A DNA stretch of 22,726 nt from positions 1-22,726 of IMG/VR virus record IMGVR_UViG_3300006802_006922; one strand, given 5' to 3'. A program made the translations under genes and the position numbers. Source of the stretch: a virus. The notes below the pieces were generated by a model. The model saw nothing but the letters and a program-made list of their open reading frames with translations, had not been told where the DNA came from and did not search any database. Shown here one piece after another: positions 1 to 17,538 of the stretch (within the stretch, counting starts at the first letter, position 1; each line of letters begins with the position of its first letter).

Positions 1-114
1 AATTTCTAATATATAATATGTAAAGCCTTCACTAATTCCACCTATAGTAGGAGCAATAAACACAATTGGTTCGTCTACAATTAGTGCAGAAGTATCTGCA
101 CAAGTTAAGTAGTT
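1..114 (-). repeat. YYV module copy 12, cut by the window edge
   Basis: The last visible codons read LTCADTSALIVDEPIVF, then PTIGGISEGFTYYILEI, and stop at base 1. The FTISET half would lie in the next bases outside the window. The giant gene therefore continues. Confidence 0.7.
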
Positions 115-3100
115 TAATAATTCATCATATGCAACTACAGTAGGTGTATCTTGGTCATAAGTTTCAATATTAGGAGTATCTTCGTCAAATGTACCTTCTT
201 GGTGTGTAGTTGATGTCACTACAACAGATGTAAAGACACCGCCTGATAAACCTGCTATACCATACTGTGATGTTAGATACTGTCTATCTGTACTGTTATA
301 TGTTAGTACAGAAATCTTTGCCCCGTTTGCTGGTGGAGACAAGAACAAAATAGTATTCGACCCTGGATTAATTTCGTATGCTGACGCTGTTTGACGTAAA
401 CCGTTGATTTCTACTATTGCATTATGTGGATTTTTATCTCCATTAAAGTTTGGTAATTCAAACGATGCTTGTGAGCCATTACCAACAAACTCAGCAATTT
501 CTGGTAGGGTGTAACCATATTGAGTTCCACCTGTTTCACCAAAGAACGAGTAAACAAAGTAATCATCTTCGTTGTTGTATGAGCCAGGAGCCGCTAAAAT
601 AAGTTTTGCTTGTATACCGTTAGGTTGTATTCCAATTGCATAATCATTTGTAACATATGTTGAAATACCTGATGCGTTAGACAATGTAACTACCGGGCCG
701 CCTAATGTTTCAGAAATAGTAAATTCATTACCGTCTACGATAGACTTGATATAGTAGTATTGGTTAGGAGTAATATCACTACCAAACATATCTGCGGCAA
801 AGATAATCCTAGAACCTACAATCAAGCCAGCAGTTGTACCAGTTGTGATAGCATTGTTACTTGCTTTTGTTCTACTAATAGTATTTGTTTTACCTAAGAC
901 TAATCGTTGACCGTTGTGATTCACAACTGGATCTGTCCAAACAGTGCCTGTGCCTGTTTGAATATTACAAATCATTGATCCAGTAGCATCTGTTAGTGAT
1001 TTAACTGGTCCCGCTAAACCTGTCGATGTGCTGTAAGTTTCAGATACAGTAATAGAATTAGTAGCAGTAGAAATTGACTTCACATAGTATGTTGTTTCGT
1101 CAGCAATGCCACCAAACACAACACCTTGGAATGTGATTGGATCGTTCTGAACAAAATCACTTACGTCTACGAAAGTAATTGTATCACCAGTTGAACTGGT
1201 TTCAATTGCTTCTACTTCAATAGAGTGTGACCCAGTTCTGATTAAACCTGAACCTTGGAATCGAGGTGCACTGTAATTAGCGTTTAAGTAAATATCATCA
1301 AATCCAGTTTCTTCAACTTCTCTGATTACATCAGTATCACTAGAACCTTTAACTAACTGATTACCATTACCAACTTCATAAACATCAATGCGTAGTCCAG
1401 TTAGAGGGAAGAAAGGTAGAGGATTATCTAACGTAATTGTCTTGTTAATCCAATCTACTGTATACTCAGATGTTGCTAATCCAGTACCTAATCCTGTTGT
1501 ATGATCGATTGTTTGCAGGTTAAGTTGTGCAGGATATTGTACATAGTTTTCAAAACTGTATTCTGTTTGAAATTCTGTTTCTGGGTATACTTCACGTGTA
1601 ACAACATTAAAACCAGTATGTGAGTACTGGGTAACGTCCCAGTTCGTTCCTGGACGTGTAGTTACTGTCATAGTTAAATTGTCTTTGACTAATCCAGGTA
1701 CTAATTCTTCTGGACCATAGCCATATGGGAAGTCTGCGCCCTTGACATCGTAGATAGGTTCTGCTATGGTAAAGAATGATGAATCTGTCCAAGTTATACC
1801 GTCATCATCAGACTCAATAATTATATTGTTATCGCCGACTACTACCCACATATTATCATCAGCATTATATTCAATGCCTCTTAGATCATATGTAGTGTTG
1901 GACGTTTGTTGTGTCCAAGAGTACATGTCAGTAGATGTTTGAATTTGACCATTTGCACCCACTGCCATCCACATACTATTAGCATACTTGATGTCATATA
2001 ATGTATTGCTTAGGGTAGGATCTAAATGATACATTCTTGTTTGTTCAGGTATTGAATCCTCTAGTAATGTGACTAAAGAAGTTAATCCTGAATCGGTGTA
2101 AAACTGTATTTGTGTTGCTGAAAGAACATCTATATAATAAGCATCACCTGCTGTTAATCCACCAAATGATTCAGTAACCGATACTCTTGCACCTGTTGCA
2201 AATCCAATAGTTGCGTTTACGTTTAGAATGTCTAGCGGTTCGTTAATAGACACACAACTAGTTTCACGTAATCCAATCCAGCTACCACCGTTGTCTGACT
2301 GATATATAATACCGTCTTCACCAACTGCTAATATATAAGAGCCATTAGAATCTACTCCATTCAAACCTAATGGAGTAAATGAAGGGCCGTCTTGCCAGAA
2401 TTGGCCTTCAGTATCAAAAGAGTATGCAATAATATTAGTGTCTACTAGTTGTGCTTCTGGTCCTGTGTAATCCCAACGCAAGCCTTTGCCCACTGCTACA
2501 AAACCTGTGTAACCAGATGCTACACCATAAGAAACACCGTTTAGTGACACTTGGAAAATAGAATCGTATGTTTTTCTTTCTGTCCATATATAAGTATCAG
2601 AACTTTGTACAATGCTTTGTCCTGCGCCAACAAAGAATCCAGCACCATAACCTACACTGTTAAGTGGTATTGCGGCAATTGACAATGATGTTGAGTCATA
2701 TGGATTAGTATCGTAGGGCAATTTACCATATGGCGTAAACCAACCGTTTGTTGTCCATGTGATGCCGTCATTACTTCTAAACACTGGTGTAGCAGTATTT
2801 GTTGAAGTCATAACGTACAAACCGTTACCACGTGTCAAATCTGTTAATCCAACAGGAACATTTGATACTTTATTAACACCCCATGAACTTCCTGATTCAG
2901 AACGCAATACTCCTGAATAGTTTTCTAAATTAGATGCACCTAAGTAAGTAGTACCGTCCCAAAGAACTGATCTAATTTCTACGCCTGTTGGATAGAAAGG
3001 CTGATCTTTTAATATAGTATCAACTTCAAATTGATCTTCAGGTGCAAATGCATTACCTAAATAAACTGAGTTTGGATATGTGATGCCTTCAAATAATTGA

Positions 3101-6100
3101 GTTAAATCTGTACCTGGCATATTAATATCTGGAGCGTAGAAACCCTCTGCTCTGTCTAATGCATTTAGTAACCTATCTCCAGATCCGATTTCTTCCCACT
3201 TACCAATTACAAATTCTGTATCATTGTTAGAGATAACACAGCGATAAACTCTATTGAGATATTTTACAATAGACTGATTAAAGTAGAATGGCTCAGGTAA
3301 GAATGCATAACTGCCTGCTTTAGAAAGTGTTAAGTCAGTTAATGCAATTGTTGTAACTACGTTTACTGGAGTGCCGTTTGGTGTGTCTGATACTTGCACC
3401 TCATTGGTTACTGTATCGATATCAGTAATGTAATAGGTAGTTGACGTTTCTACATCAATCGTATTAGTTGGCACTGTTCCCATAAATACAACTGCATCGT
3501 TATCACTAAAACCAGATACATCGTCTAATGTAATCTTGTCTGATCCTGATGTACAGCCTGTTACATTCGCAGTTGTAAATCCTTTAAAGGGGAAACCAAT
3601 TCCGCTAACAGGAACTGTCATTAATGGATCGCTATAAACTTCAACTTGCGTTGCGTTTAAAATCTTAAAGTAATAATTTTTTACTATATCATTAGGATCG
3701 CCTTCAATAATTAAACTTGTAATTGCTCCATTAGTGTCAATAGTATTAACTATTAACGTAACGTCATTGGCTGGTGAAGTGCCTCCTACTTCGTCTCCGG
3801 AAATCGTAATTTTGTTAGTAAGTGCATAACCTGATCCTGCAGTGCTTATAACAGCCCTGTAGCCACCTAAAATAAATCCTATGTCAAACTCTGCGATAGC
3901 CTGCGGTGTTTGAGTTAATGTCATAGCAATAGCAGTATCAGTTAAGGTAACTGGTGCGCCGCCTGGTGTTGCAGATACTCTAATATATGGACTACCGACA
4001 CCTGTCATTGGTCCGTTGTCTGCTCTGAGTATAAATGTTGTTCCGCCTGCTACTTCTGTCAGTGTAAAATGAGTTGCATCTACAATGGCCTTTACATAGT
4101 ATTCTGTTCCAATAACGATACCACCTAGACCAACACCTGAGAATATTATTGGCATACCAATCCACAATGATGAAGTATCTACACATGTAATTTGATTTGT
4201 AGAAGATGATGTACTTGAACAATCAACTTCGATAAAGGTAGAATCGTCTTCAGGATCAGAAAATTCAGTTACATAGTAAACAGTGCCCGATGTGATTCCG
4301 CCCTGTGTTGCATCGAATACGACAGGCATATTAATATAAAAGTTATATGTGCCTTTGTCTTGCATACTTAATGCAATTCTGTCATTAGTATCTTCTGCGA
4401 CATCACCTGCAATGGTTGCATATGCAGTTCTTTGGATAGTGTCAGTTAATACACCAGAATCAATATCTGTGTAATAAGAAGATGTATCATACATTGTAAA
4501 CAACTGACCATCAATTTGGCCAGGGGCAACAGGAAGTGACACATTCATTGTCATTGCGCCTGTTGCAGTAGTCAATTGTAATACATCTTTTTGATTTGTT
4601 AATAAAGCAGAACCGGTTGAAACTGTGGTCAACACCAATGGAGTTCTGTTAATTTGTGTTGCAATTTTTAATTCTGTGCCTGACACAATTTCATTAACAT
4701 AGTATAAAGCACCTGATTCTATACCGCCGTAACTTGTCAATGGATTACCTGATGCATCGACCATTGTGTTAAAGATAATTGGATCATTAACACTGAATCC
4801 TGTAGTGTCTTGTACTGTGATGATATCTGTAGTTGCTGTCGTGCCTTCGACCGTAGTTTTTACTGGATTAGGATCAGCAGATATCGTAATATTTTCATTA
4901 TCGACAACTGTTGTTACATAGTAAACATCATCTTCAATGATGCCCCCAAACACATTTCCTGTAAAGAATAAAGGAATACCAATATAGAATCTATCTGTTC
5001 CACCTGTGCCTATAGCACTTTGAGGAATAGTAATGGTATTAATATCTTTTGTAGTAGCGGTTGCAGTTAGCAGTCCAGGATAATTTAATGTTAATACTGC
5101 GGTGTCTAAAACTTCACCAACAATACAAGACATACCGGCAGAGCCTGCTGTTCCATCAGTTAATGGTAATGTACTGCCGCCTTCAGTTTCAGAAATTGTA
5201 AAGTCTGTAATGTTAATAATACTGTCTACATAATATACTTGATCTGCTATAATGCCGCCTATTGTTGCACCTGTAAATTTAATTGGCATACCAACATAAA
5301 AACCAATAGTAGAACCTGATGAGTTTAATTCTCCGTTGTTTTCATCGTATGGATCTAGTCTAACTGCATTATTTGCATCTTCTGTAAGTTCTACTTTACG
5401 CACAAATGATGACCAAGTAACTTGATGATTATTTTCTGCGTTTGCTACTTCAAAGACTACTCCCTGAGCAGATGCTAATAAACTATCAATTGGTGGTTGT
5501 GTAGATTGTAAATCAATTGATGATGATGCAATATTTTCACTATTAAAATAACTGCCGGCGAAGAAAGATCCATAGAACGTACCTTCTTCCCAATCTGAAA
5601 TTTGAGAGTTATACGTTGTTCTATCAAATCTAACTGTTGTATTATTTTCTCTGATCGGGTATGCACTTGATATTGCTGTTGCTCTTGCACCTAAATTTAA
5701 TGCAAAATTACCGTCAGTTGACCCAGCAGTAAACTCTATTCTGTTTGTTTCTCTAACTGCATCTCTATAACTTGAGTATAATGCTACAATAGTTGTAGGC
5801 ACTATTTCTAAAACATTTATGTAATACCATTGTCCGTCGACTAGTCTATCAATAGTGCCGCCGTCTGGATCTGCAACATATTTTATAATGTCACCTGTTT
5901 GTAAATTAGGTGCAAACAATCTGATTGTATGCAAACTAGAGTTTACATCTTCTAATGTAAAGAATAGTTGTTGAGACGGGTCAATTCTAATTTCTGGTAA
6001 TACAGCATACCCTGATCCGGGATTTACAACTTTCACACTAATAACATCATCCACGCTCATTACTGCTTCTAACTGAGCCTCTTCTCTGGGTTCAGGGTAG

Positions 6101-9100
6101 ATAGATGTATCAATGTATGCTGTAACTTTAGGTGGTTCAGTGTAGCCTGAGCCGCCGTCTAATACAACAACAGGGGGCAAATTAATAAAGATTTTAGCGC
6201 CCGGTATGTGTGCAACCGGAGTTGTGTCGTTAATACCCCTAGACAATCCACCTAATAAATTTAATGCCCTATCAACATAAGCATAGCCAATTTGTTCTTC
6301 GTCAATTGTAATAACACCATTAATTGGGAAACCCTGTGCGTTATCGACAATTAAGAATGTTGAACCTAATGTGATATACGCACCAAGTGATGTAATCTCA
6401 TATTCAGTTTGACCTGTCAATGACACTCCGTAGTTGTTAGACCAGTTAGTGTATTGTGGTAAAGACCATATTGGATTAGTATACAAGAACTGTGAATCCG
6501 AATCTGCTCCTTGATATACTAATTCAGGTGTTATGTATTGTCCTGTGCTTGAATTATATTGTGCAGGCAAATCAAAGTCTGTAACTTCTCCTTGATAAAC
6601 ATCAGTACCGGTGTACTTGAATAAAAAGTCTTTAATAACAACGTGATAAGGTTTGACTTCGTTTAAGTATCCTGCTAAAAATTCTTGGTTGTCTGATTGG
6701 AAGTTTTCTATAGGTTTTAGTTCCCTTATCGTGTGCGTTACGTCAACCAAAGAAGTTTTGTTGAGCCATGGCAGATAATTCTGTGACTCATCTGTTTCAC
6801 TATTGATGTATTCAAACAAAATAATTAGTGATTTGTTTCTGTGTTCTACAAGTTCATCAATATAAATTTGTTCATTTAATGCTCTAACAATCCAACGTGT
6901 TTCTTCACTTGGATATTCGTCAAAAGATGCAGTGTCAAAGAAATTGTCACCGAATCCTGTTTTACCTGCGGCATAATCCCACAAGTAAGTCTTAAATTTT
7001 ATTGTGCCGTTTTCTAAACCGATGCGTGTCCAAACACCTGTACCGTCATAACGATACATTTCCCACTTACCTTCACCGTTTTCATCAACAGTAACAATAG
7101 TATTTCGTGCCACATTTAATTTTGCAAGATCGGCATACATTGCTACAGTTTGTGTAGACTTGGTATTGTTATTATATTGAACTTCTGTTGACGGGGTAGG
7201 CAACCACCAGTTAATGTATTCCCAATAATCAGTAGTATTATAGTATTCTCCTGTTTGGAACAAGAACGATGCTTCTCGTCTAGTTTCAGCAATAGGATAC
7301 TGTGCAAGAATAGTGTTTGCGTATTCTAAGTAGTTTTTAAGTGCAAAGAATCTGTTAAAGAAGAAACTTTGTCTTGGTCTTGCCAACACACCTGACTGCA
7401 CTGCTTTTGGTAAGTATGGATTAGGAACAACTCCACCTACCTCATCGACTCCTGACATAGAATCTAACATTCTGTCATATAGACCTTCGGGTCTATTAGT
7501 TGCAGTTTCGGGACCAAACTTGGGCAGACCCGGCAAGAAGTCATCAGCAGAGTTTGATCTAATTAAATTAAACTCTTGGTGCGGTTGATCGTCACTTAAT
7601 CCAGTTGCAAAACCAACATGTAATACTGAATCGTTTGCATTAAGAAACGGCTGTGCGTTGTACAATGCAAACGTGTTAGGTAACAACGGTGCAAAGAAAG
7701 GTATGCCTGTATTTTTAGGATTAATAATATAATCTTGTAACGTTCTGTCACTTAATGTTTTGCCAATCTGTTGATTAATAATATTGCTGTTACGCACCCA
7801 ATAATAGTACATTGGCGTAACAACACCTGATGCATTTAACCTTGATTCTATAACATATTGAGTAATATCTTTAGGTGTTCCTCTTCCTGTGTAACCGTCT
7901 GGTGGAACATTGCTTTCAATCCAAGTACAAACATAAACGTCAGATCCAGGAAAAACTCTACCCCAATATCTACTGTTATAAGTTACATCATTTTGATGAT
8001 AGTTCATCCAGCGTACTTTAGATGTGTCGAACCACATTTGGCCAACTTGATTAACACCCCAAGTCATACCAGAACTTCTTACTCTGCCGCCGTCAGAATT
8101 ATATGTTGCAGGATCTATATTGCTAACATAATCTAAGTTTTGTCTAATAGCACCCAATAATTTATTTTGCATTGGATCTGGATAATCAAAATTGACTAGT
8201 GTATTATTTGTTTCTGCACTATATAACTGAACGTTTTGAATTTTTTCAATGTCAACGATAGGAGCAGATTCTCTGTAAATTCCCCAGTCTTTAAGACCAG
8301 TGCTATTTCTATAGACATTAATCTGTCCTGATATGTCTGTGTAAGAATAATTAGGTGTTCCGATAACTACTTGATTATCGTTAAAGTCTAATGCTGTTCC
8401 ATAATATGGCTGATATCCATAGTTTTCGTCAAGTGAGTTACAATGTTGTGCATACACAAACTGTCCTGGATCTGCTAAACTACCATTATAATTGGCAAGA
8501 TAATCAAACATATATACGGCGCCAGCGTTTGGATAATCATCTACGAATCTTGTTGCATTATTATTAAACACTGTGTCGTTATGTAAATTTTCGTCATCAA
8601 CAAAATCAAACGTTGTACCTAAATATCTTGTGCTTGCAGGTGCAGAAATAACTACAGAGTCACGGTCATTAAATTTAATTGTGCTTCCAAACAGTGTTCT
8701 GGATTTACCATGGGGAGGTAAAATTGTTTGCGTTTCTGTATATAAACTAATACCTAATTCTGCAAACAACTCATCATCAGTTTGTTGTAGTTTTAGTTTT
8801 TCATTGATTACACTTAAGCCAGGTGATATTGTTGACAATATTAATTTATTATCACTAGCCGATGCTGTAATGTTTGTAATTCCGTTGTTGTTAATTTGTG
8901 TTGCAACTTGCTGTGCGTTACTGCCTCCTGCCAATGGTATGCGATAGCCGTTAATTAATAACACCCGACTTGTTGTTAAAGAACATTCTTCGGTGCCTAC
9001 TACTGAACCATATTTTGCTCCGGCGTCAGTGTATCTGTGTACTGCGCCATCGATTGTTTCTTCACCGTTTTCGACAATTTCTCCAGGAGCACCAAATAAT

Positions 9101-12100
9101 ATTTCGTTTGCTGAATTCGTTATAGCAGTGTCGTAACCAAACTGTATACCAACTCTGTTTGTGTTAGGAGCGTCAACTGTTTGTGCCCACTGAAACTCGT
9201 TGCTTTCTACTGTAAGTATGTCGCCCGCTCTTAATATAGAGTAATATCTAAGATTAGTTCCTAAAACAGCATAATTATTGTCATTTACTATAGTGCCATT
9301 TACTTTTGCTGTAATTGCTTCTGACTGCACATATGCAGTAAACGTTACGCTAGGCGTATCTGTGAGCGTCACAGGGGTCGTTGTAGAACGAGTTGTCTTT
9401 AACGATATTGTATTACCAACTATATCTTCAATGTAATAAACTGTTGATGAAGATATCCCTGAATCTCCGAAATCAGCGCCATCAAATACAACAGGATCAT
9501 TGACGTTCATGCCAGTAGTTGACGCTAGTGTAATATAATTTGATGCAACCACTGTTGCTGAACTACTTGTTACAGTAGGTGTAAATGCAATTGGGAACTG
9601 TTGGTACTGATCTTCTCCATTAGTGTATTGTGATTCTATATTTTGAATCAACCGCTGATAGATATAACCATTACCAAAGTTAGTTAAATTACTTGTTCCT
9701 GTTTTGTAAGGTGCTCCTACTGCAAGAGTGTCACCGTTGTAGTCTGTAGAAACAGAGAAACCAAAGTTATCACCTGCTACTGCTCCCTGCGTTGCACCAT
9801 CAATTATAATTGGTGTAGTGTTGTAAGTTACTTGATTCGCAATACCTGTACCTGAACCAACTCCAGTAGCAATAAACGTAATACCTGTTTTTCCTTCAAC
9901 AGCACCGATCGATTCCCAATCAGTGTCACCTACTTCAGTAATTTCATATGTTTGTCCTGCAACAAAGAAGCCTGCTTCAAAAGGAATTCTTTGTTTGCGG
10001 TAGATATAAACTTTATTATCTGATGGATAACCTGCAAAAATCCAATTTTTATCTTTGGATATAACAACGTCTGTACCTACACCACTTGGCACAGAAATAG
10101 CAGGTTGATATTCTACAATATCATCTGTTAGAACTGTATTGTTTAACGTGTAAATGTGTAAGTTAGGTGTACCTGTTGGCTCTGAAACAATATACATATT
10201 GTCTGATGCTGATAAACTTGTACCAAAAGATATACCACCTGTTAACAGACTACCTGTGTCTTCATCAAAATTATTTGTTGTTTCATTGTAACCATAACGA
10301 TAAACTTTTCCAACGTCAGCATCGCCGATTAAGTATCCCATTCTTGGGCCGTACGCAACAGCACTACCAAATGAGATGCCGTCTGCTCTATCTAGTTCGT
10401 TTAGTTGTGTATAGTTAATAGACTTTCTATAAACTGCCCAGTCTCCGTTTTCACCTTCGTCTACCCAAACTGTGTTTTTAGTAAATTCTGCTTCAAGTAA
10501 ATCTGTATCTGGAATATTAGATGGTTTTGCTACACGCTGACTAATAAATGTAAGGCCCAATCCAGAATTAGTAACCTGTACAGGTTGTGCGTCTCTTAAT
10601 GTAAGGTTAATATTGATTGTGAAAGCATCTACTATAGCGATGGCTACATAATAACCATCAATCTCAGGGCTAACATTTATAAAACAAATTGTGTCAAGTT
10701 TCTTAAGATTGTGTCTATCTTCAAATCTAATCTGTGTTACTTTTTCTCCTAAGAATTGTGCGCCTGTAACTCTGGAAACAGGTTTCCACGTAAACACTCT
10801 CCACTTTTCTTTGAAATTTGCTATCCAGGCATAATCTCTAACATAAAAGGCCCTAATAGGTACACCAAGATCCTTTGAGTTTCTTGCCCTTCTTAGTCCA
10901 GCATAAGTGTATGATGCCATTCGTACATCATCATAGTTCACATAACCTGCAGTTGGATATAAACTATCTGCATAACTACTATTTGTTGTTAACAAGACAT
11001 TAGGGTCAGTAACAGGTCTTGCATAATTATACAAATTATGAATAGAAACTTCTTGCATGGCGCCTGGTGTGGGTGTTCCGTTTGTTATGCTAACGATGCC
11101 GGGGTTTCCTGTTAACTTAGATTGATTAACTTTAAAGTCAACAAAGTTGCTATTTAAGGTACCACCAAACTGTCCAGATAGAATAGCCCAGTTTTCATAA
11201 ACATCATAGTCTATACCACCCTGTGGTAAATTTGCACCTTTGAATGCAGAAACAGCATTAGGTGTTCCTTTGTTTTTAATTAAGTTTTTGTAAACGTTAA
11301 CTTGTGTAATGTCAGTCAAATCTACAAGAGCAAGATAATCTCTTGGTCTATAACCAATCAATGAAAACGATAATTGATCTGCATCTTGTTCTAAGTTTGC
11401 TGTATTAGTGTTGTAATACAGTGTTTGTTCATATGAACGTGTTGATGAATTCGGCAACAAACCTTTTTGTATTTCATCATAATCTGTAACAAGCCATTCT
11501 GTTTCTTGGAACTTAGATGCTGGCTGAATTGTTTTTAATGCCGTCCAGTATTTGTTTTTGTAAGTAACAATCATTCCTTTGGCATACTTTTTGCCAACAG
11601 CCCAGGGTTCGATGTTGTCCTGATTTAAAATAAATCCAGAAGCAAACATTGTTCCGTTCCACTCTGCGGTTTTAACTCCACGCATATAGATACGATTTTG
11701 CCTTAAGCCAGTAATTAAATTATAAATGACATCATTAAAGACGGTTACGTTATCAAAAACAATACCGTGTTCAAAGTTACTTAAGTTAACTTGTAGGTAA
11801 GACATAGCATCACCTGAATTTAATGTTTTAACATTAAACTCAGTATCTAAACGTGTAATTGCCAAATCATTTGTTTTTATAGGGTATAAATTTTGGTTTA
11901 ATATAAAGTTATTCTGTGTAACTGTTAATGGCTGAACAATCTGACTTTCTCTATTAATTTTTAAATTTTGAGCCGCAGGGTTCAAAGTAATAATTGACCC
12001 GTTTTCCCAGCCTGTTTGTGACCAATATAAAAACTCTTTAGTAATAAAGTCCCAGTTAATTTCAACACCGGAGTCGATTTCATCAAACACCATGCCTTTG

Positions 12101-15100
12101 CGTCTTAAATAACTTGAATAACCTGCTAAGAAAGTTGCAACTTCTTGTGGCGTGTAGAATATTGTGCCGTATGGGACTAGAGTTTCTTGTGTTTCACTTG
12201 TAGTAAATTCATTAGGTATTTTTACAGTAATTTCATCTACTGTAATTTGTCTATTATTTCCATTGTTAACTGGTTTATCAATTACAAAAAATGCTTGGCT
12301 TTGTGAATTGCCGTATACTCTCCAACCGTCATTTGTAATTTGTAAAACAACAGCGGAATATTTGATTGTATCTTCTGGTTGATTATCGTGTAACAACACA
12401 GCATAACTTTCATCTGGAATTAACAAGGATGCGTTATTAGAGTTAGGTGTGCCTTTTTCTACAAAGAATTTTAATAGTGTTTTATCACTATAGCCAGCAA
12501 GACGATAAATCAATCTAACATCTAAGTTGTTGAATAGATCAGTAAGTGATGTAGTTGCATCTACACCTCTTACTTTTTCATAATCAACAATCCAGTTTAA
12601 GTAACTTGTTTTTGGTGTTCCAGAACCATATACTTGAATATCATTAATAATTAAATGAGTTCTGTTGTCTACAAGATATTGTTTAAATTCTGTATTATAT
12701 TTGTAATTGTCTAAATCAACTGCTAAATTAAACAATTGAGCAGGTTTAGTCAATGCAAAAAGTTTTATTAAATCAAAAGGCCAAGTAGAACTTCTACGAT
12801 AAGATAATTCTGCTGATGCAACGTCACCCACTTTCCAATCTCGTCTAAATGTATTAGAATTGTATTGTCCAATAATTGCGTCCATGGGAGAACGTAGGTT
12901 GCCTTGTGCGTCTACTGGTATGATTTTACTTAAACCAGGACGAGCAACCTTTTCATCAGTAATTGGGTCACCGTTGTTCCAAATATAACCTGCTTCTAAG
13001 TCTGCCCATAAAATATCATTGTTGCTTGTATATGGTGCAGGTCCGTAACGATCTGTCCACCAATCAGGCATATTAGCAAAACCTAACATTTCCCATGGTG
13101 CAGTATTTGGCTGGAATGAATCATAGAAGTATTTGTATAATCCTCTCCAATAGCCTTGATACACAGGAGTGTTTGTTAGTTTATTACCTGCGGCTGTATA
13201 GTTATAACTAAACTGATTTGTAGAAGAATATCCTTGTTGTGTTTTATAATTAATTCTGTTTGATCCTGCCCAGTTCAAAAACATAGGTGAATACATTTTT
13301 AAGAAGTCTTCGTTAGAATATGTGCCTTCTCTAAAGAAGCCAGGCATAATTTCGTATTCGTTAATAGGAACTTCGCTAGAAAGTTTAATGTTGTTATAAA
13401 TTCTTTGTTCAAATTCAAGCATCAACTGATCTCTAAAATCAGTTAAGCCATATTCTTCGCTGTAGTCTCCATAGAGGGTTGTATACGAACCATCGTGTCC
13501 TTGAATAACATAAACGGGTGTTGAATAGTTTGTTGCTAATATTACTTGTGGTATAAACTTAGGATACAATCCCAACTTAGTTGGAGTGTTTGGAACATAT
13601 GAACCATATGTTTGATTGTATTCTTTGATCGTAATTACATCATTTGGCTGTAACAATACAGTTACATTTAATGATGGAGAAGTTGTAGAAACTGTATAGT
13701 CTCTGTCTTTAATTAGTTGTGTAGTTACCTGAGTACCTTGAACCGTTCTGGTAAGATATACCAATACACCGCTATAGTTTGCAGTTTCAAAATTATAAAT
13801 TTTTGTTAAAGGATAAACTGATTCTTGTAAAGCATTAGCAAACGTATAGTTGTTTGATTGATATGGTGCTTGAGAGGGCATCATATCACTCCAGAAGAAA
13901 GGATCAATTTCTGATTTAGCAGATGTTACTGCGTCTAATGTTTGATCCAGTATATAGGATGCAGAAAATCGCTGTTCCCAATCAATGTCTGATGCAGTCT
14001 TAACTAAAAGTTGTTTGTATTGTACATATGACTCACTATTAAATTGCAATGCATCAAAAATATTATGCTCTGATTTGCGTGAGAACGTGCCTGGTAACAC
14101 AAGTGAGGCAGAGTTTTGAATAATCTTAGTACCATATGGTACAAGATTTCCTAAATCTCTATAATTATTAGATCCAAAAATTGCACCTTCAATGCTTGGT
14201 GCATTTACAAAAATGTTTTGATATTGTGATCTTACGTCACCGATATTAACTGTGGTTAAATCTCCATTAAATGGATTGTTATTCAAGTTAATAGGTATGC
14301 CATAATATGCAGTGTCACTAACTTGATCACTTAATAGTAAAATTTGAATAGGTGTATCGTCAACAGGTGCTGTGTTTAAGGTGACAACCGTAGTCTTATC
14401 TGTACTAGTAACAACATAATCTGTTGGCAACACAAAGACGTTGTTTATATAAACTTGTATTCTAGGCCATTTGGCAGTATTGTCTGGATCTTCAGGTAAA
14501 ACAGCAATATCACAAGTGAACTGGGCTGTGGTCCCTTTTGTATATTCTAGTTCAAATATTTGATATTGAACTGAGGGGGCAACTGCTGTTTGCCAACCCA
14601 ATTCTCTTGTAAAGTCTGCATTGGTTGTGTAGTCGTACACGTAACCAGTATTAACTTTTTGTTCTATCGGCTCGGTGCCTGTTACATAAGAAAAACTTTG
14701 ACTGTTCAGTGCTACGTCAAAACTAATATCACCCACATTGTCTATATTAGAATAACTAAGAGGGAAACCTAATACAGTGTCGTTTGCGCCTGTACCAATT
14801 CCATATGCAAATAATTTATTGCCTATAAATGATGTACCTTGATAATAGTCAGCATCACCGAATGAAATACCGTTGTTATCAAATACATCAAACAATGGTG
14901 CTTGGTTAACAGTTAGTTTTTGTTGTGCTTCTGACCAGTACTGACCATCAAACCAAAAAGTTGAACCCTGATAATTGTATCCTCTTAGTGATACGGTTTG
15001 ATCATTTTCTTCAACTGGACTATCTTCTGATTCAGTCAATGTTATAACTGTTGGTCCACCGGTAGATAATTTTGAAAATCCTACTATCCAAATTTTATTT

Positions 15101-17538
15101 CTAACGCTAATGTTAGTATCGGCAGCAAAAACAATTCTTGCGCCTGGGAATAATGCATATTGATCTACTGTGGTGTCACTACCTACAATAGATGAATTTA
15201 TTGTTTCTGCAAAAGTTGCTGGACTAGCCCAAGAAACTTCTAATATAGTATTGCTACCAACTATATCAATACTGTCGATTTGTGTATTTGTTGGTAAAAC
15301 ATTTGTTGAGTCTGTGATATACATTCCAACTTGAAATGCAGTATATACATTTGACGTTGGTACAGTAATCGTAGTTGTAGTATTAGAAGTCACTGCACTA
15401 ATTGTAGCAGTATAATCCGTGTACGTTTCAACGTCTGGATAATAAGACTGTTGATTTGCTACTTTTGTAAATGCATTGGTTGTTCTTGTGTCGATAAAGT
15501 CTACTGGATTTTTAGAAGCCGCACCAGAATTAAAAAGTTTTAAGTTTGGATAAAACTCAATGATAGGACGTTTTGCTTTGTTTGTTCCAGTAGCATACGT
15601 TGTAATAATAGTTGGGTCTTCGTTATACTGTGCTGTAGCATTAATAACTTCTATATGGAACCATCTGTTTGATCTAGACCAAGCATTATTATTAATAGAG
15701 TTTCTAGCAATAGTAATGTAATCAGGATCGACGGGTATAAAAAGTTCTGTATCAAAATTACCAATCGAATATGGAAGAGTATCGTATGGAATATAATTGG
15801 CGCCAGTAAAATCTTCTGGACACAATAATTTATTAACAGGAACAAGTTCAATACTTGTACCTACTCCCTCTACATAATATTCCCCATTCAAATAACTAGA
15901 AGGAACTACATCTCCGTCAAACTGTACTTTTAATCCGTTAGTAAATACTACTCCGTTTGTTGATGTAAATGTTTGTTGTCCTAAAATGTCTTCGTTGACG
16001 TTTAGTGTGTTTGTTAAATTGCTTTCAATTAATCTAATAACACCAACTTTATTTGGATTAACTCCATCCTGATAATACAATGTATCTAGTAACGCTGACA
16101 AGTATGGAATTTGTAAAATAATACCGTCTGCACTTCTATAAAAATCTAAACCAATATATTCTGTACCGTATATTACAGTAATTTTTTCTTCTGTAGGAAT
16201 AACTCCTGACGGTATTAATCTAATTGTTGGGTCTGTAGGATCTCCTACATATGTAATAGTATAAAAGTTTTCTGATACTGCCGAGTAAAAACCTTCTTCA
16301 AACAATCCTTCATTTACATTTGCTACCATTTCGCCTGTGCCAGCAAGTAGTGGTAACGTAATGCCACCTAAAGTTTCACTAATAGTAAATGTAGTTGAAG
16401 ATATAATATCTTTTACATAATAAATTTTGTCTACACTTAATCCACCTAACAACGGTAGACCGTCTGGCTGAGTAAAAGTAACTGTTTGGTTTTCAATTAA
16501 GCCTGAAGTATCGCCTGATGCTAATACTAGTTGTGACGTTGTTGTTTGATCAATTGATAGTGTTACTGGTGCTACAATTTCAGGAGATACTAAGTTTACA
16601 TCATAGTTTGCACCGTTCTCATCAAAAAATGCCTGTACATAACCTATTTCATCTGGATCTTCTGTATCATAAAACATCACTGTTAAACCGTCTAGTGATG
16701 TTACTCCATCAATGCCCCCAATCTCAGATAACAATTTTCCGTTTATGTTTTCAAACAGTTCGTTTGTTACAACATCGACGGTGTTGTTACCTGGGAAAAC
16801 AAATTGATCTTGTGCCGAACGACTAGGTACAGTAAATGTTACGTAGCCTTGATTAGCACCGTTATTAGATACGCCTAATATATCTCTTGTATATTGATTG
16901 CCATCGTATCCAGTTACTCCGGGTACACCTTGAATCCAAAAGCCTGTTTCTTGGTTAACTGCAAATCTGTATGTTCCGCCACGTAGTAATGTGATTGTAG
17001 GGTTGAGAGATCCTGATGCCGCGCCTGATGGTCGAATATTATATGCTTGAGGTAAATCTGATACAATGTAATCGGTTTCTGCAAATACTGTAGCACTTGC
17101 TACAGTAACAACAGGAGGACCTTCTGGTATCCAATAGTATTCATTGAAATTAATTAATTTATCTAAATTAGTAAACGAATCCCATGAATAAAATTCGCTC
17201 TGAAATAATTTAGAATTGTCAAGTGTTACTGAGCCTTTTAATTTTAACGCATCAATGATTCCAGGATACGTTACAAAGTCTTGTGCGACAGATTGATTAT
17301 TTTTTAAAAAAGCAACGCCCGGGGCTAATTGATAATCTGTTCTTGTTTTTGTAGGCTCTGTTACATAGAAATCTTTTGCATTGACACCGTAACCAAATTT
17401 GCTACCCACATAACCTTGCAGTGTTTCATTTTTTGGTGGGTTAACTAATTGGTCAAGGGTTGCACCCAAAAACTCTGCGTTTGAGGGAGTTTTGAATATT
17501 TCTGGTAGAAACTCAAGTGTTCTAATTCTATGACTCAT
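1..17538 (-). CDS. Giant modular virion structural protein at the gp7 position (C-terminus beyond window)
   Basis: The frame opens at ATG 17538 and runs to base 1 without a stop: 5846 codons, over 600 kDa, still incomplete. The start is chosen because AAAGG lies 7 nt upstream and the N-terminus is well formed (MSHRIRTLEFLPEIF). Visible parts by residue: N-terminal region 1-150; aromatic-rich core about 1100-2300 with PWEMLGF near 1480 and RSSTWPF near 1583; carbohydrate-binding-like segment 1975-2017; FG-GAP propeller 2373-3080; GSGY loops near 3800-3850 and 4570; Asp-box propeller 4880-5250; at least twelve YYV modules from 327 to the edge. No signal peptide or membrane segment was noticed. 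It follows gp6 by 10 bp, the place of T4 gene 7 (wedge initiator, 1032 aa), so a baseplate-attached structural or host-contact role is inferred. It could instead be a tail-fibre-like adhesin unrelated to gp7. The gene call is very secure; the function is not. Confidence 0.95.
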   Translation of the reverse strand, partial: MSHRIRTLEFLPEIFKTPSNAEFLGATLDQLVNPPKNETLQGYVGSKFGYGVNAKDFYVTEPTKTRTDYQLAPGVAFLKNNQSVAQDFVTYPGIIDALKLKGSVTLDNSKLFQSEFYSWDSFTNLDKLINFNEYYWIPEGPPVVTVASATVFAETDYIVSDLPQAYNIRPSGAASGSLNPTITLLRGGTYRFAVNQETGFWIQGVPGVTGYDGNQYTRDILGVSNNGANQGYVTFTVPSRSAQDQFVFPGNNTVDVVTNELFENINGKLLSEIGGIDGVTSLDGLTVMFYDTEDPDEIGYVQAFFDENGANYDVNLVSPEIVAPVTLSIDQTTTSQLVLASGDTSGLIENQTVTFTQPDGLPLLGGLSVDKIYYVKDIISSTTFTISETLGGITLPLLAGTGEMVANVNEGLFEEGFYSAVSENFYTITYVGDPTDPTIRLIPSGVIPTEEKITVIYGTEYIGLDFYRSADGIILQIPYLSALLDTLYYQDGVNPNKVGVIRLIESNLTNTLNVNEDILGQQTFTSTNGVVFTNGLKVQFDGDVVPSSYLNGEYYVEGVGTSIELVPVNKLLCPEDFTGANYIPYDTLPYSIGNFDTELFIPVDPDYITIARNSINNNAWSRSNRWFHIEVINATAQYNEDPTIITTYATGTNKAKRPIIEFYPNLKLFNSGAASKNPVDFIDTRTTNAFTKVANQQSYYPDVETYTDYTATISAVTSNTTTTITVPTSNVYTAFQVGMYITDSTNVLPTNTQIDSIDIVGSNTILEVSWASPATFAETINSSIVGSDTTVDQYALFPGARIVFAADTNISVRNKIWIVGFSKLSTGGPTVITLTESEDSPVEENDQTVSLRGYNYQGSTFWFDGQYWSEAQQKLTVNQAPLFDVFDNNGISFGDADYYQGTSFIGNKLFAYGIGTGANDTVLGFPLSYSNIDNVGDISFDVALNSQSFSYVTGTEPIEQKVNTGYVYDYTTNADFTRELGWQTAVAPSVQYQIFELEYTKGTTAQFTCDIAVLPEDPDNTAKWPRIQVYINNVFVLPTDYVVTSTDKTTVVTLNTAPVDDTPIQILLLSDQVSDTAYYGIPINLNNNPFNGDLTTVNIGDVRSQYQNIFVNAPSIEGAIFGSNNYRDLGNLVPYGTKIIQNSASLVLPGTFSRKSEHNIFDALQFNSESYVQYKQLLVKTASDIDWEQRFSASYILDQTLDAVTSAKSEIDPFFWSDMMPSQAPYQSNNYTFANALQESVYPLTKIYNFETANYSGVLVYLTRTVQGTQVTTQLIKDRDYTVSTTSPSLNVTVLLQPNDVITIKEYNQTYGSYVPNTPTKLGLYPKFIPQVILATNYSTPVYVIQGHDGSYTTLYGDYSEEYGLTDFRDQLMLEFEQRIYNNIKLSSEVPINEYEIMPGFFREGTYSNEDFLKMYSPMFLNWAGSNRINYKTQQGYSSTNQFSYNYTAAGNKLTNTPVYQGYWRGLYKYFYDSFQPNTAPWEMLGFANMPDWWTDRYGPAPYTSNNDILWADLEAGYIWNNGDPITDEKVARPGLSKIIPVDAQGNLRSPMDAIIGQYNSNTFRRDWKVGDVASAELSYRRSSTWPFDLIKLFALTKPAQLFNLAVDLDNYKYNTEFKQYLVDNRTHLIINDIQVYGSGTPKTSYLNWIVDYEKVRGVDATTSLTDLFNNLDVRLIYRLAGYSDKTLLKFFVEKGTPNSNNASLLIPDESYAVLLHDNQPEDTIKYSAVVLQITNDGWRVYGNSQSQAFFVIDKPVNNGNNRQITVDEITVKIPNEFTTSETQETLVPYGTIFYTPQEVATFLAGYSSYLRRKGMVFDEIDSGVEINWDFITKEFLYWSQTGWENGSIITLNPAAQNLKINRESQIVQPLTVTQNNFILNQNLYPIKTNDLAITRLDTEFNVKTLNSGDAMSYLQVNLSNFEHGIVFDNVTVFNDVIYNLITGLRQNRIYMRGVKTAEWNGTMFASGFILNQDNIEPWAVGKKYAKGMIVTYKNKYWTALKTIQPASKFQETEWLVTDYDEIQKGLLPNSSTRSYEQTLYYNTNTANLEQDADQLSFSLIGYRPRDYLALVDLTDITQVNVYKNLIKNKGTPNAVSAFKGANLPQGGIDYDVYENWAILSGQFGGTLNSNFVDFKVNQSKLTGNPGIVSITNGTPTPGAMQEVSIHNLYNYARPVTDPNVLLTTNSSYADSLYPTAGYVNYDDVRMASYTYAGLRRARNSKDLGVPIRAFYVRDYAWIANFKEKWRVFTWKPVSRVTGAQFLGEKVTQIRFEDRHNLKKLDTICFINVSPEIDGYYVAIAIVDAFTININLTLRDAQPVQVTNSGLGLTFISQRVAKPSNIPDTDLLEAEFTKNTVWVDEGENGDWAVYRKSINYTQLNELDRADGISFGSAVAYGPRMGYLIGDADVGKVYRYGYNETTNNFDEDTGSLLTGGISFGTSLSASDNMYIVSEPTGTPNLHIYTLNNTVLTDDIVEYQPAISVPSGVGTDVVISKDKNWIFAGYPSDNKVYIYRKQRIPFEAGFFVAGQTYEITEVGDTDWESIGAVEGKTGITFIATGVGSGTGIANQVTYNTTPIIIDGATQGAVAGDNFGFSVSTDYNGDTLAVGAPYKTGTSNLTNFGNGYIYQRLIQNIESQYTNGEDQYQQFPIAFTPTVTSSSATVVASNYITLASTTGMNVNDPVVFDGADFGDSGISSSTVYYIEDIVGNTISLKTTRSTTTPVTLTDTPSVTFTAYVQSEAITAKVNGTIVNDNNYAVLGTNLRYYSILRAGDILTVESNEFQWAQTVDAPNTNRVGIQFGYDTAITNSANEILFGAPGEIVENGEETIDGAVHRYTDAGAKYGSVVGTEECSLTTSRVLLINGYRIPLAGGSNAQQVATQINNNGITNITASASDNKLILSTISPGLSVINEKLKLQQTDDELFAELGISLYTETQTILPPHGKSRTLFGSTIKFNDRDSVVISAPASTRYLGTTFDFVDDENLHNDTVFNNNATRFVDDYPNAGAVYMFDYLANYNGSLADPGQFVYAQHCNSLDENYGYQPYYGTALDFNDNQVVIGTPNYSYTDISGQINVYRNSTGLKDWGIYRESAPIVDIEKIQNVQLYSAETNNTLVNFDYPDPMQNKLLGAIRQNLDYVSNIDPATYNSDGGRVRSSGMTWGVNQVGQMWFDTSKVRWMNYHQNDVTYNSRYWGRVFPGSDVYVCTWIESNVPPDGYTGRGTPKDITQYVIESRLNASGVVTPMYYYWVRNSNIINQQIGKTLSDRTLQDYIINPKNTGIPFFAPLLPNTFALYNAQPFLNANDSVLHVGFATGLSDDQPHQEFNLIRSNSADDFLPGLPKFGPETATNRPEGLYDRMLDSMSGVDEVGGVVPNPYLPKAVQSGVLARPRQSFFFNRFFALKNYLEYANTILAQYPIAETRREASFLFQTGEYYNTTDYWEYINWWLPTPSTEVQYNNNTKSTQTVAMYADLAKLNVARNTIVTVDENGEGKWEMYRYDGTGVWTRIGLENGTIKFKTYLWDYAAGKTGFGDNFFDTASFDEYPSEETRWIVRALNEQIYIDELVEHRNKSLIILFEYINSETDESQNYLPWLNKTSLVDVTHTIRELKPIENFQSDNQEFLAGYLNEVKPYHVVIKDFLFKYTGTDVYQGEVTDFDLPAQYNSSTGQYITPELVYQGADSDSQFLYTNPIWSLPQYTNWSNNYGVSLTGQTEYEITSLGAYITLGSTFLIVDNAQGFPINGVITIDEEQIGYAYVDRALNLLGGLSRGINDTTPVAHIPGAKIFINLPPVVVLDGGSGYTEPPKVTAYIDTSIYPEPREEAQLEAVMSVDDVISVKVVNPGSGYAVLPEIRIDPSQQLFFTLEDVNSSLHTIRLFAPNLQTGDIIKYVADPDGGTIDRLVDGQWYYINVLEIVPTTIVALYSSYRDAVRETNRIEFTAGSTDGNFALNLGARATAISSAYPIRENNTTVRFDRTTYNSQISDWEEGTFYGSFFAGSYFNSENIASSSIDLQSTQPPIDSLLASAQGVVFEVANAENNHQVTWSSFVRKVELTEDANNAVRLDPYDENNGELNSSGSTIGFYVGMPIKFTGATIGGIIADQVYYVDSIINITDFTISETEGGSTLPLTDGTAGSAGMSCIVGEVLDTAVLTLNYPGLLTATATTKDINTITIPQSAIGTGGTDRFYIGIPLFFTGNVFGGIIEDDVYYVTTVVDNENITISADPNPVKTTVEGTTATTDIITVQDTTGFSVNDPIIFNTMVDASGNPLTSYGGIESGALYYVNEIVSGTELKIATQINRTPLVLTTVSTGSALLTNQKDVLQLTTATGAMTMNVSLPVAPGQIDGQLFTMYDTSSYYTDIDSGVLTDTIQRTAYATIAGDVAEDTNDRIALSMQDKGTYNFYINMPVVFDATQGGITSGTVYYVTEFSDPEDDSTFIEVDCSSTSSSTNQITCVDTSSLWIGMPIIFSGVGLGGIVIGTEYYVKAIVDATHFTLTEVAGGTTFILRADNGPMTGVGSPYIRVSATPGGAPVTLTDTAIAMTLTQTPQAIAEFDIGFILGGYRAVISTAGSGYALTNKITISGDEVGGTSPANDVTLIVNTIDTNGAITSLIIEGDPNDIVKNYYFKILNATQVEVYSDPLMTVPVSGIGFPFKGFTTANVTGCTSGSDKITLDDVSGFSDNDAVVFMGTVPTNTIDVETSTTYYITDIDTVTNEVQVSDTPNGTPVNVVTTIALTDLTLSKAGSYAFLPEPFYFNQSIVKYLNRVYRCVISNNDTEFVIGKWEEIGSGDRLLNALDRAEGFYAPDINMPGTDLTQLFEGITYPNSVYLGNAFAPEDQFEVDTILKDQPFYPTGVEIRSVLWDGTTYLGASNLENYSGVLRSESGSSWGVNKVSNVPVGLTDLTRGNGLYVMTSTNTATPVFRSNDGITWTTNGWFTPYGKLPYDTNPYDSTSLSIAAIPLNSVGYGAGFFVGAGQSIVQSSDTYIWTERKTYDSIFQVSLNGVSYGVASGYTGFVAVGKGLRWDYTGPEAQLVDTNIIAYSFDTEGQFWQDGPSFTPLGLNGVDSNGSYILAVGEDGIIYQSDNGGSWIGLRETSCVSINEPLDILNVNATIGFATGARVSVTESFGGLTAGDAYYIDVLSATQIQFYTDSGLTSLVTLLEDSIPEQTRMYHLDPTLSNTLYDIKYANSMWMAVGANGQIQTSTDMYSWTQQTSNTTYDLRGIEYNADDNMWVVVGDNNIIIESDDDGITWTDSSFFTIAEPIYDVKGADFPYGYGPEELVPGLVKDNLTMTVTTRPGTNWDVTQYSHTGFNVVTREVYPETEFQTEYSFENYVQYPAQLNLQTIDHTTGLGTGLATSEYTVDWINKTITLDNPLPFFPLTGLRIDVYEVGNGNQLVKGSSDTDVIREVEETGFDDIYLNANYSAPRFQGSGLIRTGSHSIEVEAIETSSTGDTITFVDVSDFVQNDPITFQGVVFGGIADETTYYVKSISTATNSITVSETYSTSTGLAGPVKSLTDATGSMICNIQTGTGTVWTDPVVNHNGQRLVLGKTNTISRTKASNNAITTGTTAGLIVGSRIIFAADMFGSDITPNQYYYIKSIVDGNEFTISETLGGPVVTLSNASGISTYVTNDYAIGIQPNGIQAKLILAAPGSYNNEDDYFVYSFFGETGGTQYGYTLPEIAEFVGNGSQASFELPNFNGDKNPHNAIVEINGLRQTASAYEINPGSNTILFLSPPANGAKISVLTYNSTDRQYLTSQYGIAGLSGGVFTSVVVTSTTHQEGTFDEDTPNIETYDQDTPTVVAYDELLNYLTCADTSALIVDEPIVFIAPTIGGISEGFTYYILEI
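650..876 (-). repeat. YYV module copy 11 (residues 5555-5630)
   Basis: The copy reads TTAGLIVGSRIIFAADMFGS, then NQYYYIKSIVDGNEFTISET and LGGPVVTLSNASG. The FTISETLGG segment is identical to that of copy 1, more than 5000 residues away in the same chain. Confidence 0.75.
960..1213 (-). repeat. YYV module copy 10 (residues 5442-5527)
   Basis: The copy reads TGDTITFVDVSDFVQNDP, ITFQGVVFGGIADETTYYV, then ITVSET and a closing SLTDATGSM. It is close to the consensus, with a slightly longer stretch after SET. Confidence 0.75.
1789..2901 (-). other. Asp-box (BNR-like) beta-propeller region of the giant protein
   Basis: Residues about 4880-5250 carry six Asp-box-like turns: RSESGSSW (2881), RSNDGITW (2755), QSSDTYIW (2584), QSDNGGSW (2278), TSTDMYSW (1915) and SDDDGITW (1789), where the number is the W codon position. 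Each is preceded by strands such as GFFVGAGQSI, YILAVGEDGII or WVVVGDNNII. This is the pattern of sialidase/Ycf48-type propellers, one blade per Asp-box. A full YYV module is inserted between the fourth and fifth turns. Confidence 0.75.
2058..2262 (-). repeat. YYV module copy 9, inserted in the Asp-box propeller
   Basis: Residues 5093-5161 read INEPLDILNVNATIGF, then SFGGLTAGDAYYIDVLSATQ and end in LVTLLED. The module follows the Asp-box turn ending SWIGL and precedes the next propeller strand (YDIKYANSMWMAVG), so it looks like a loop insertion. Confidence 0.65.
3345..5385 (-). repeat. Cluster of six YYV modules (copies 3-8)
   Basis: Six copies lie in 2 kb: 5128-5385, 4864-5085, 4590-4863, 4220-4428, 4000-4222 and 3345-3570. 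Each has a polar start ending in T, a G-x-P-φ-x-F segment, GGI, then YYV and a strand such as FTISE or FTLTE. Copies 4 and 5 adjoin directly, as do 6 and 7. A spacer of about 430 bp with a GSGYAL loop separates 7 from 8. At the DNA level the centre of each copy on the + strand keeps a short acata(g/a)ta-like string, but the rest is diverged, so the duplications are old. Confidence 0.8.
8828..8964 (-). other. Flagellar hook-IN-like motif in the giant protein
   Basis: Residues about 2859-2904 read INGYRIPLAGGSNAQQVATQ, then IN, then NITASASDNKLILS. The layout φxINGxxI, A-Q-x-V-A-x-x-IN, ITA and KLxLS matches the 'hook IN' motif seen in flagellar hook-associated proteins and in some phage tail and fibre proteins. 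Confidence 0.5.
9338..9588 (-). repeat. YYV module copy 2 (residues 2651-2734), inside the FG-GAP region
   Basis: The copy includes GMNVNDPVVFDGADFGDSG, then STVYYIEDIVGNTISL and a closing TPVTLTD. It is more diverged than the clustered copies (YYI instead of YYV, no SET) and lies between two FG-GAP blades. Confidence 0.6.
11488..11615 (-). other. Carbohydrate-binding-module-like segment in the giant protein
   Basis: Residues 1975-2017 read W-A-V-G-x-x-Y-x-x-G-M-I-V-T-Y-K-N-K-Y-W-T-A and end in ETEWLV. This spacing of W, Y, G, V, Y, YW and a final W is the pattern of small CBM5/12-like (chitin-binding type 3) folds. Such folds are common on phage tail proteins as glycan-binding modules. The call is by pattern only. 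Confidence 0.5.
16319..16560 (-). repeat. YYV module copy 1 (residues 327-407)
   Basis: This is the first clear copy of the repeated module. It runs from TTTSQLVLASGDTSGLI through LLGGLSVDKIYYVKDI to STTFTISETLGGITLPLLA and a closing GTGEM. It stands alone near the N-terminus, far from the main cluster. A diverged relative (LNGEYYVEGV) may lie at 15838-16020. Confidence 0.7.
17090..17538 (-). other. N-terminal region of the giant protein
   Basis: Residues 1-150 form a compact, non-repetitive, mixed region (MSHRIRTLEFLPEIF, then NAEFLGATLDQLVNPP, GSKFGYGVNAKDFYV and NFNEYYWIPEGPPVV). It differs from the repetitive remainder. By position next to gp6 it is a good candidate for the part that docks onto the baseplate. 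From memory, similar N-termini occur on very large structural proteins of marine T4-like phages, but I could not check this. Confidence 0.5.

Follow-up and report, generated by a model that had tools for sequence, protein, structure and literature searches.

Gene content of the window

The analyzed window (22,726 bases) is a whole IMG/VR virus record, and its main genes are encoded on the minus strand:

1..17538, minus strand: giant baseplate-region protein carrying the modules described below, an open reading frame of 5,846 aa, open at the contig end
17549..20911, minus strand: gp6-like baseplate wedge protein (PHROG 10646, E 4.5e-263; PHROG 219, E 1.4e-26)
20965..21423, minus strand: gp25-like baseplate wedge protein (Pfam GPW_gp25, 33.9 bits at a cut-off of 27.2)
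21441-22724, minus strand: partial protein, weakly similar to a PHROG of tail fibres (E 1.9e-6)

PHROG 10646 and PHROG 219 are both labelled baseplate wedge subunit. The giant open reading frame sits directly downstream of the gp25-like and gp6-like genes, as is the case for gp7 of phage T4. Both of its halves match PHROG 10938, "virion structural protein" (E 5.9e-202 and 9.2e-50), whose category in PHROGs, head and packaging, points away from a baseplate placement. Proteins of 3,323-4,555 aa align with it in seven cultured jumbo phages. In PA5oct, 121Q, and Phosso, they are directly preceded by genes of gp25 and gp6 size that are annotated as baseplate or baseplate wedge, with an intron-associated gene inserted between the two in 121Q; in RaK2 and Atu_ph07, only the larger of the two upstream genes bears an annotation of this type. 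The counterpart of the larger gene in Vibrio phage 2.275 is annotated as a CBM 5/12 protein, and in SCTP-2 a 9.3-kb unannotated neighbour takes the place of the baseplate genes. Judging by gene order, the giant protein would be the positional counterpart of T4 gp7; because a profile of its core (11 sequences) found nothing in the PDB at E 1, we infer the gp7 identity from position. The giant protein is a probable tail-base protein of uncultured jumbo phages.

The giant protein has further features of its own. Residues 1979-2001 (window positions 11536-11604) give a weak CBM_5_12 match (16.0 bits, below the cut-off of 26.2). In Pseudomonas phage PAC2, the homologous protein bears the annotation chitin-binding type-3, which may or may not concern the same residues. 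Three GSGY motifs at residues 3796, 3841, and 4568 (window 3834-6153) have similar surroundings, suggesting another small repeat.

The YYV module, a widespread and old repeat family

An earlier note on this DNA, made from the sequence alone, proposed a repeated module with a YYV motif, present in at least 12 copies in the one chain. A search of the giant protein with a profile of 11 hand-cut copies identified 11 full copies and one cut copy. The envelopes of this profile set the limits listed here and agree with the places given in the note (around residue 330 and at window positions 3345-5385, 960-1213, 650-876, and 1-114):

16297..16566, minus strand: module 1, residues 325-414, single, in a stretch with no counterpart in the cultured homologues
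9313..9579, minus strand: module 2, residues 2654-2742, probably between FG-GAP-like propeller blades
5110..5370, minus strand: module 3, residues 4057-4143
4846..5058, minus strand: module 4, residues 4161-4231, its last strand, by the strand list of the model, possibly doubling as the first of module 5
4579..4863, minus strand: module 5, residues 4226-4320
4231..4416, minus strand: module 6, residues 4375-4436, short, continuing directly into module 7
3976..4236, minus strand: module 7, residues 4435-4521
3298..3579, minus strand: module 8, residues 4654-4747
2014..2271, minus strand: module 9, residues 5090-5175, probably between Asp-box-like propeller blades
946..1224, minus strand: module 10, residues 5439-5531
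631..894, minus strand: module 11, residues 5549-5636, the copy that was folded singly
1..147, minus strand: module 12, residues 5798-5846, cut by the contig end

The biased composition of these segments and the lack of a Pfam model for them are what might be expected if the similarity were only that of generic Thr/Gly/Val-rich beta sequence. This explanation is rejected by three controls, which leave it practically untenable. Each of the 11 full copies was recovered at 26.9-64.5 bits by a leave-one-out profile built from the other ten, as against 10.7 bits for the best of 2,000 composition-preserving shuffled stretches of the giant protein. The hand-cut segments overlap in two neighbouring pairs (by 15 and 29 residues), and the scores of these four copies may have profited from it; the seven copies without overlap still span 26.9-64.5 bits. 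In the homologous giant proteins of the seven cultured jumbo phages, the best domain found with the seed profile scored 10.9 bits, and even this one is possibly a true weak relative, as it reaches 17.8 bits with the profile A1. Finally, hhalign scores did not exceed 23.4 in 96 control windows of the giant protein (those of 142 with fewer than 25 residues overlapping a module); the module windows scored 60-146, values that are high by construction because the profile contains those copies or their orthologues. The YYV module is thus a true repeat family.

Two further, diverged relatives suggested by the earlier note fared differently. The segment at 15838-16020 (residues 495-585) scored 6.2 bits with the seed profile and 12.0 bits with the enlarged one, levels reached by 25 and 2 of 5,000 shuffles, respectively, and is a borderline candidate. 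The segment at 15205-15420 (residues 700-790) scored 0.5-0.6 bits and was rejected. Half-like spots near residues 2255-2345, 3855-3955, and 4590-4660 (0.6-6.0 bits) were not counted as copies.

No Pfam or NCBIfam model matched any of the 12 copies or their consensus, and no description of such a domain in phages was found in the open-licence literature. The family, for which the earlier note knew no name, has none at the level of domain models, although it has named relatives at the level of the fold, namely, the E1 FCCH domain and the I-domain of the P22 coat protein.

Modules 3-7 served as queries in a scan of 2.9 million viral contigs, which yielded 17 loci. Whole-record searches of 11 of these records found 14 copies in seven of them and 15, 9, 19, and 11 copies in the others; the giant protein is split over two frames in one of these records and is cut in another, and the uncut giant frames have 5,924-6,609 aa. 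With four copies as queries, another scan produced 289 pattern matches, and 219 of them were confirmed. Judging by copy spacing, the best 80 of these 219 loci appear to represent the same giant protein, which has no bearing on the other 139. On the loci of both scans together, the profile produced 812 matches in 100 reading frames, with some contigs counted twice; YYV or YYI is present in 709 of the 812. Among bacterial and archaeal genomes, a single scan gave 45 pattern matches, none of them confirmed, with patterns so narrow that absence from these genomes is not shown by it; the plasmids scanned contributed one weak match.

Across the relatives, the positions of the copies are largely conserved, but some slots are absent or newly occupied. 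In a tree of 94 copies from eight proteins (without copies shorter than 52 residues, among them the cut copy of the window), the nearest neighbour of a copy was never another copy of its own protein (0/94). Nearly all copies grouped by slot, with one copy of the record L017 falling outside its slot; for module 1 of the window the tree contains no orthologue, as the loci start beyond it. The adjacent pairs 4/5 and 6/7 could raise the suspicion of a recent local expansion through tandem duplication in this gene. This explanation is rejected by the tree and is highly improbable also in view of the identity of the other copies to module 7 (17-37%) and of the DNA of the window, in which no tandem repeat was found. 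As the copies are homologous, duplication did happen, which bears out part of the earlier proposal that the module spreads by internal duplication. Because no nearest neighbour lies within the same protein, the expansion predates the divergence of these phages, and internal duplication belongs only to the distant past; moreover, the module is also found inside the loops of other domains. Among seven orthologues, the 13 modules have a mean identity of 0.53, compared to 0.67-0.68 for two core segments: the modules evolve faster than the core. Other added parts of the giant protein (0.50-0.60) diverge to a similar extent.

Location outside the conserved core and in other virion proteins

Of the 5,846 residues of the giant protein, 2,464 align to at least one of the seven cultured homologues, and the aligned core consists of four blocks, residues 3-193, 501-698, 791-2240, and 3079-3703. 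All 12 modules lie entirely outside these blocks. As a chance control, 134 of 5,846 circular shifts of the module set avoid the core blocks equally well. In PA5oct, the stretches that flank residues ∼194-516, the region around module 1, are adjacent to each other.

The earlier note placed some of the copies inside two propellers. For module 2, an FG-GAP_2 match above the Pfam cut-off precedes it at residues 2586-2627, and blade-like motifs recognized by eye lie at residues 2386, 2434, 2485, and 2590 and then at 2796, 2949, and 3046. Module 9 is flanked by Asp-box-like blades at residues 4854-5059 and 5180-5219, also recognized by eye; here the profile evidence, a PSII_BNR (Ycf48-type) match at residues 5187-5264, is below the Pfam cut-off. 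Both modules are likely to sit between the blades of two propellers.

The module is not confined to the giant protein. Seven large relatives (259-364 kb) carry 14-21 copies each, 10-14 of them in the giant protein and the remainder in three to five other reading frames each. One of these frames, in the record L123 (positions 1511-4027), encodes an 839-aa protein with He_PIG Ig domains and adjoins the gene for a 424-aa protein with two modules. With the flanks joined, the He_PIG match in the 839-aa protein scores 30.1 bits over profile positions 6-95; the left flank alone scores 20.6 bits over positions 6-64, and the right flank alone gives no match. The YYV module interrupts an He_PIG Ig-like domain of this second protein. 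Relatives of the 839-aa protein were confirmed in 221 viral contigs, and in the best 80 of them (including some near-identical contigs) the insertion site is filled with a module match in 80 of 80, the flanks being about 270-300 bases apart in 79 and 465 bases apart in one. As an empty site was not found among these best 80 of 221 relatives, mobility of the module is deduced from its nested position.

Another phage motif of the giant protein, at residues 2531-2565 (window 9844-9948), reads YEITEVGDTDWESIGAVEGKTGITFIATGVGSGTG. A similar stretch lies near the C terminus of a 463-aa module protein encoded in the record L124, and because of this second occurrence YEITEVGDTDWESIGAVEGKTGITFIATGVGSGTG may be another plug-in unit.

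Among named phages, a tblastn search with modules 4-7 gave no match at E 0.001, and two single copies gave 2 and 1 partial matches at E 1. The profile consensus matched 46 of 50,697 records at E 0.1, many of them weakly, including virion proteins and tail fibres of cyanophages, a tail spike of a Gordonia phage, Microbacterium phage proteins annotated as minor tail or hypothetical, and a cyanophage protein encoded beside the tail terminator gene. Six records fetched from this list contained one copy each by profile; cyanophage Syn1 and Microbacterium phages, each with a single copy, are the closest named carriers among them. By the same profile approach, matches were seen in 7 of 13 named records: in all six chosen by their tblastn match and in one (weakly) of the seven jumbo phages chosen for the core. 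That one is Vibrio phage 2.275 (17.8 bits, E 8.4e-4); at E 0.01, no module match was present in the whole records of the other six cultured jumbo phages, and sub-threshold traces were seen in 121Q and RaK2. The consensus also matched parts of PHROG 5838 (virion structural), 9370 (tail fiber), and 7765 and 4711 (both unknown) with E of 1.3e-4 to 1.5e-3. Each of these families describes whole proteins rather than a domain, and single copies match them only weakly (E 0.004 and up). As the earlier note had anticipated, relatives thus occur in other tail proteins, in keeping with use of the module as a building unit. By its sequence matches, the module would be an accessory domain, found in otherwise different virion proteins and, bar the weak match in Vibrio phage 2.275, absent from the homologues of its carrier's core.

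Predicted fold, role, and comparison with known systems

Module 11, modelled as a single copy from 130 aligned copies (120 of 129 non-redundant copies plus 10 copies of the window; the nine dropped copies all came from the near-identical record L002), was predicted with six strands (pLDDT 85.7, pTM 0.75). In a five-copy model of modules 3-7 (48 aligned orthologues; pLDDT 85.3, pTM 0.41), strand order and spacing recur from module to module, with five strands in module 6. These two models, of one single copy and of one five-copy stretch, support the small compact beta fold common to the copies that was foreseen in the earlier note. The fold is predicted to be a small six-stranded beta-barrel, its closure being deduced from the strand lists. 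In the list for the five-copy model, one strand serves both modules 4 and 5, and another one probably serves modules 6 and 7. Because of the pTM of 0.41 of this tandem model, the arrangement of the modules, and hence a rod, is uncertain.

A Foldseek search of the PDB retrieved E1 enzymes first (E 0.024, TM 0.58), with ATP synthase rows interleaved from E 0.028; no match was under E 0.001. In VIA-align, E1 FCCH domains accounted for 39 of 50 rows, with Z up to 8.4 (values of about 8 fall in the range that this tool calls a common arrangement), and the other rows included the tail tubes of FCWL1, T1, and Mystique, the endosialidases of phi92 and NF, and the P22 coat protein. The fold search with the tandem model, which covered mainly module 5, returned the E1, tube, P22, and phi92 matches with an rmsd of 2.2-2.9. 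Fourteen viral models in BFVD passed E 0.001, followed by the "baseplate wedge initiator" of cyanophage Bellamy (3.0e-3) and the tail fibre of S-TIM5 (5.3e-3); phage proteins named lectin/glucanase-like and ChiC_BD are among the BFVD matches. In profile searches of the PDB, the P22 coat protein family was the only match at first (E 0.026); with a larger alignment, an antibody came first (E 0.18), and P22 had E 0.24. By modest model-based evidence, the nearest solved folds would therefore be E1 FCCH, then the surface domains of siphophage tail tubes, the P22 coat I-domain, and the endosialidase barrels.

These data are best accounted for, at a probability of roughly 0.6, by an insertable barrel that decorates the giant protein outside its older conserved core and has an exposed accessory role at the periphery of the baseplate. 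Such a barrel, a beta domain of 75-90 residues, could be accommodated in a surface loop of a different domain or joined head to tail with further copies. One copy would be near the N terminus, one between the blades of each likely propeller, and the rest in a long C-terminal arm. Some neighbouring modules appear to share a strand, and the arm would then be a stiff rod instead of a flexible string of beads. The barrels would most likely serve as spacers, stiffeners, and exposed contact surfaces, and the variable loops of single copies may have acquired binding sites. An exposed domain that enlarges the baseplate rim, extends its reach, and provides it with contact surface would fit the faster evolution of the modules, their insertions, and the pattern of conserved residues. 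In the 130 aligned rows, Phe is conserved in 95%, two Tyr residues in 100% and 87%, and Gly in 82-85%. All residues common to more than half of the copies are hydrophobic, Gly, Pro, Thr, Ser, or Asn, and no conserved charged or catalytic set is seen across the 130 copies. The insertable reading is also backed by the matched phage folds, as these include two inserted domains, the T1 tube domain and the P22 I-domain.

Alternatively, the modules might bind cell-surface or capsule sugars by their variable loops and form a multivalent adhesion arm by which the phage stays attached to its host. The matched folds include the barrel of a K1F-type endosialidase (endoNF, 3ju4); passages of PMC12632334 count the K1F barrel among three binding sites for polysialic acid and ascribe host discrimination to its loops, and K1F endosialidase is listed as an Asp-box propeller protein in a portion of PMC2716378, which resembles the position of module 9 between Asp-box-like blades. 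The lectin/glucanase-like and ChiC_BD names of the BFVD matches point the same way. However, no conserved aromatic or charged set is seen besides the YYV tyrosines, which lie in a predicted strand; the fold serves other roles in E1 enzymes, the P22 coat, and the tail tube; and the K1F barrel itself, again according to passages of PMC12632334, is largely permissive to mutation. By analogy, sugar binding by single copies can be considered a fair rival to the accessory-barrel reading, and an adhesion arm as a whole, such as the glycan-binding unit that the earlier note allowed for, seems possible but rather unlikely.

With a predicted fold, boundaries, and a profile, this unnamed domain of uncultured jumbo-phage virion proteins allows chains of about 6,400 residues to be parsed. 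It also suggests a route from a baseplate protein of 3,300-4,600 residues, as in the cultured relatives, to the giant one, by adding parts built around one plug-in domain. Host-sugar binding by the arms becomes directly testable on single 90-residue domains.

Comparison with known systems connects phage surface domains to a fold that also occurs in ubiquitin-activating (E1) enzymes. The first catalytic cysteine half-domain of these enzymes (FCCH; PF16190) is the top fold match of the YYV module, in a middling range (Z up to 8.4; Foldseek E 0.024), and belongs to a catalytic context that the YYV carriers lack. The E1_FCCH model of Pfam (cut-off 29.5) matched none of the 12 copies, nor their consensus, even at E 10, and was not found in the window; membership of the module itself in this or another Pfam family was accordingly rejected. 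In GenBank, such proteins bear the annotation "E1 FCCH domain-containing". In the 11 further records, the cut-off is passed only by a different, neighbouring domain, never by the YYV module, and in two orthologues:

L005:15764-16030: domain between modules 13 and 14 that passes the E1_FCCH cut-off (34.5 bits)
L016:15770-16036: the same domain (33.3 bits)

In L003 and L018, this domain scores 19.2 and 19.4 bits, under the cut-off. Its profile link to the YYV module is weak (hhalign probability 8, score 19.6, exceeded by 4 of 96 control windows), and the module would for that reason be described as having an FCCH-like fold rather than as an FCCH member.

The I-domain of the P22 coat protein is a six-stranded beta-barrel inserted in another fold, according to sections of PMC11243222 and PMC9965877. 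Compared with the YYV module, it gives an hhalign score of 33.8, above all 96 control windows (maximum 23.4), at a probability of 74-83, and with module 5 a VIA-align Z of 6.6 and an rmsd of 2.9; the sequence link is marginal in the PDB profile searches (E 0.026 and 0.24). The P22 domain is present in one copy, in a coat protein of the HK97 fold, whereas the YYV carrier is encoded beside gp6-like and gp25-like baseplate genes and has its aligned counterparts in large proteins encoded at the corresponding position in jumbo phages.

The outer domains of siphophage tail tubes (T1 gp41, FCWL1, and Mystique) match module 5 with Z of 7.3-8.4 and rmsd of 2.3-2.7 but the singly folded copy with rmsd of 5.3-6.7. 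In T1 gp41, the match to module 5 covers residues 16-97; the outer domain itself, which its authors describe as Ig-like, comprises residues 16-94. It interrupts the sequence of the tube beta-sandwich and projects to the outside (PMC11945409). There is one outer domain per tube subunit, and these proteins are absent from the PDB sequence-search matches of the module; gp57 of cyanophage KBS-S-2A, encoded next to the tail terminator gene, does contain a sequence relative of it. The endosialidase barrels match with Z 6.4 and rmsd 2.2 over 72 residues (endoNF) and with Z 7.3 and rmsd 4.0 (phi92). They lie beside a propeller, like module 9, and have a reported sugar site, whereas binding by the YYV module would be an analogy of fold; PDB sequence searches gave no match to them. 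Ig-like domains, treated as small beta domains of phage structural proteins in parts of PMC5259590, are alike in kind, but He_PIG is a Pfam family different from the YYV module.

All these domains, the YYV module, the P22 I-domain, the tube outer domain, the endosialidase barrel, and E1 FCCH, could be branches of one old insertable beta-barrel superfamily that spread by insertion into loops and that uncultured jumbo phages turned into a construction kit for a giant baseplate arm. We regard this idea as speculative and rather doubtful, as the P22 I-domain profile and the neighbouring FCCH-hit domain align with an hhalign probability of only 0.2. The fold of the YYV module is of a known kind; what is unusual about it is the number of copies and their arrangement.
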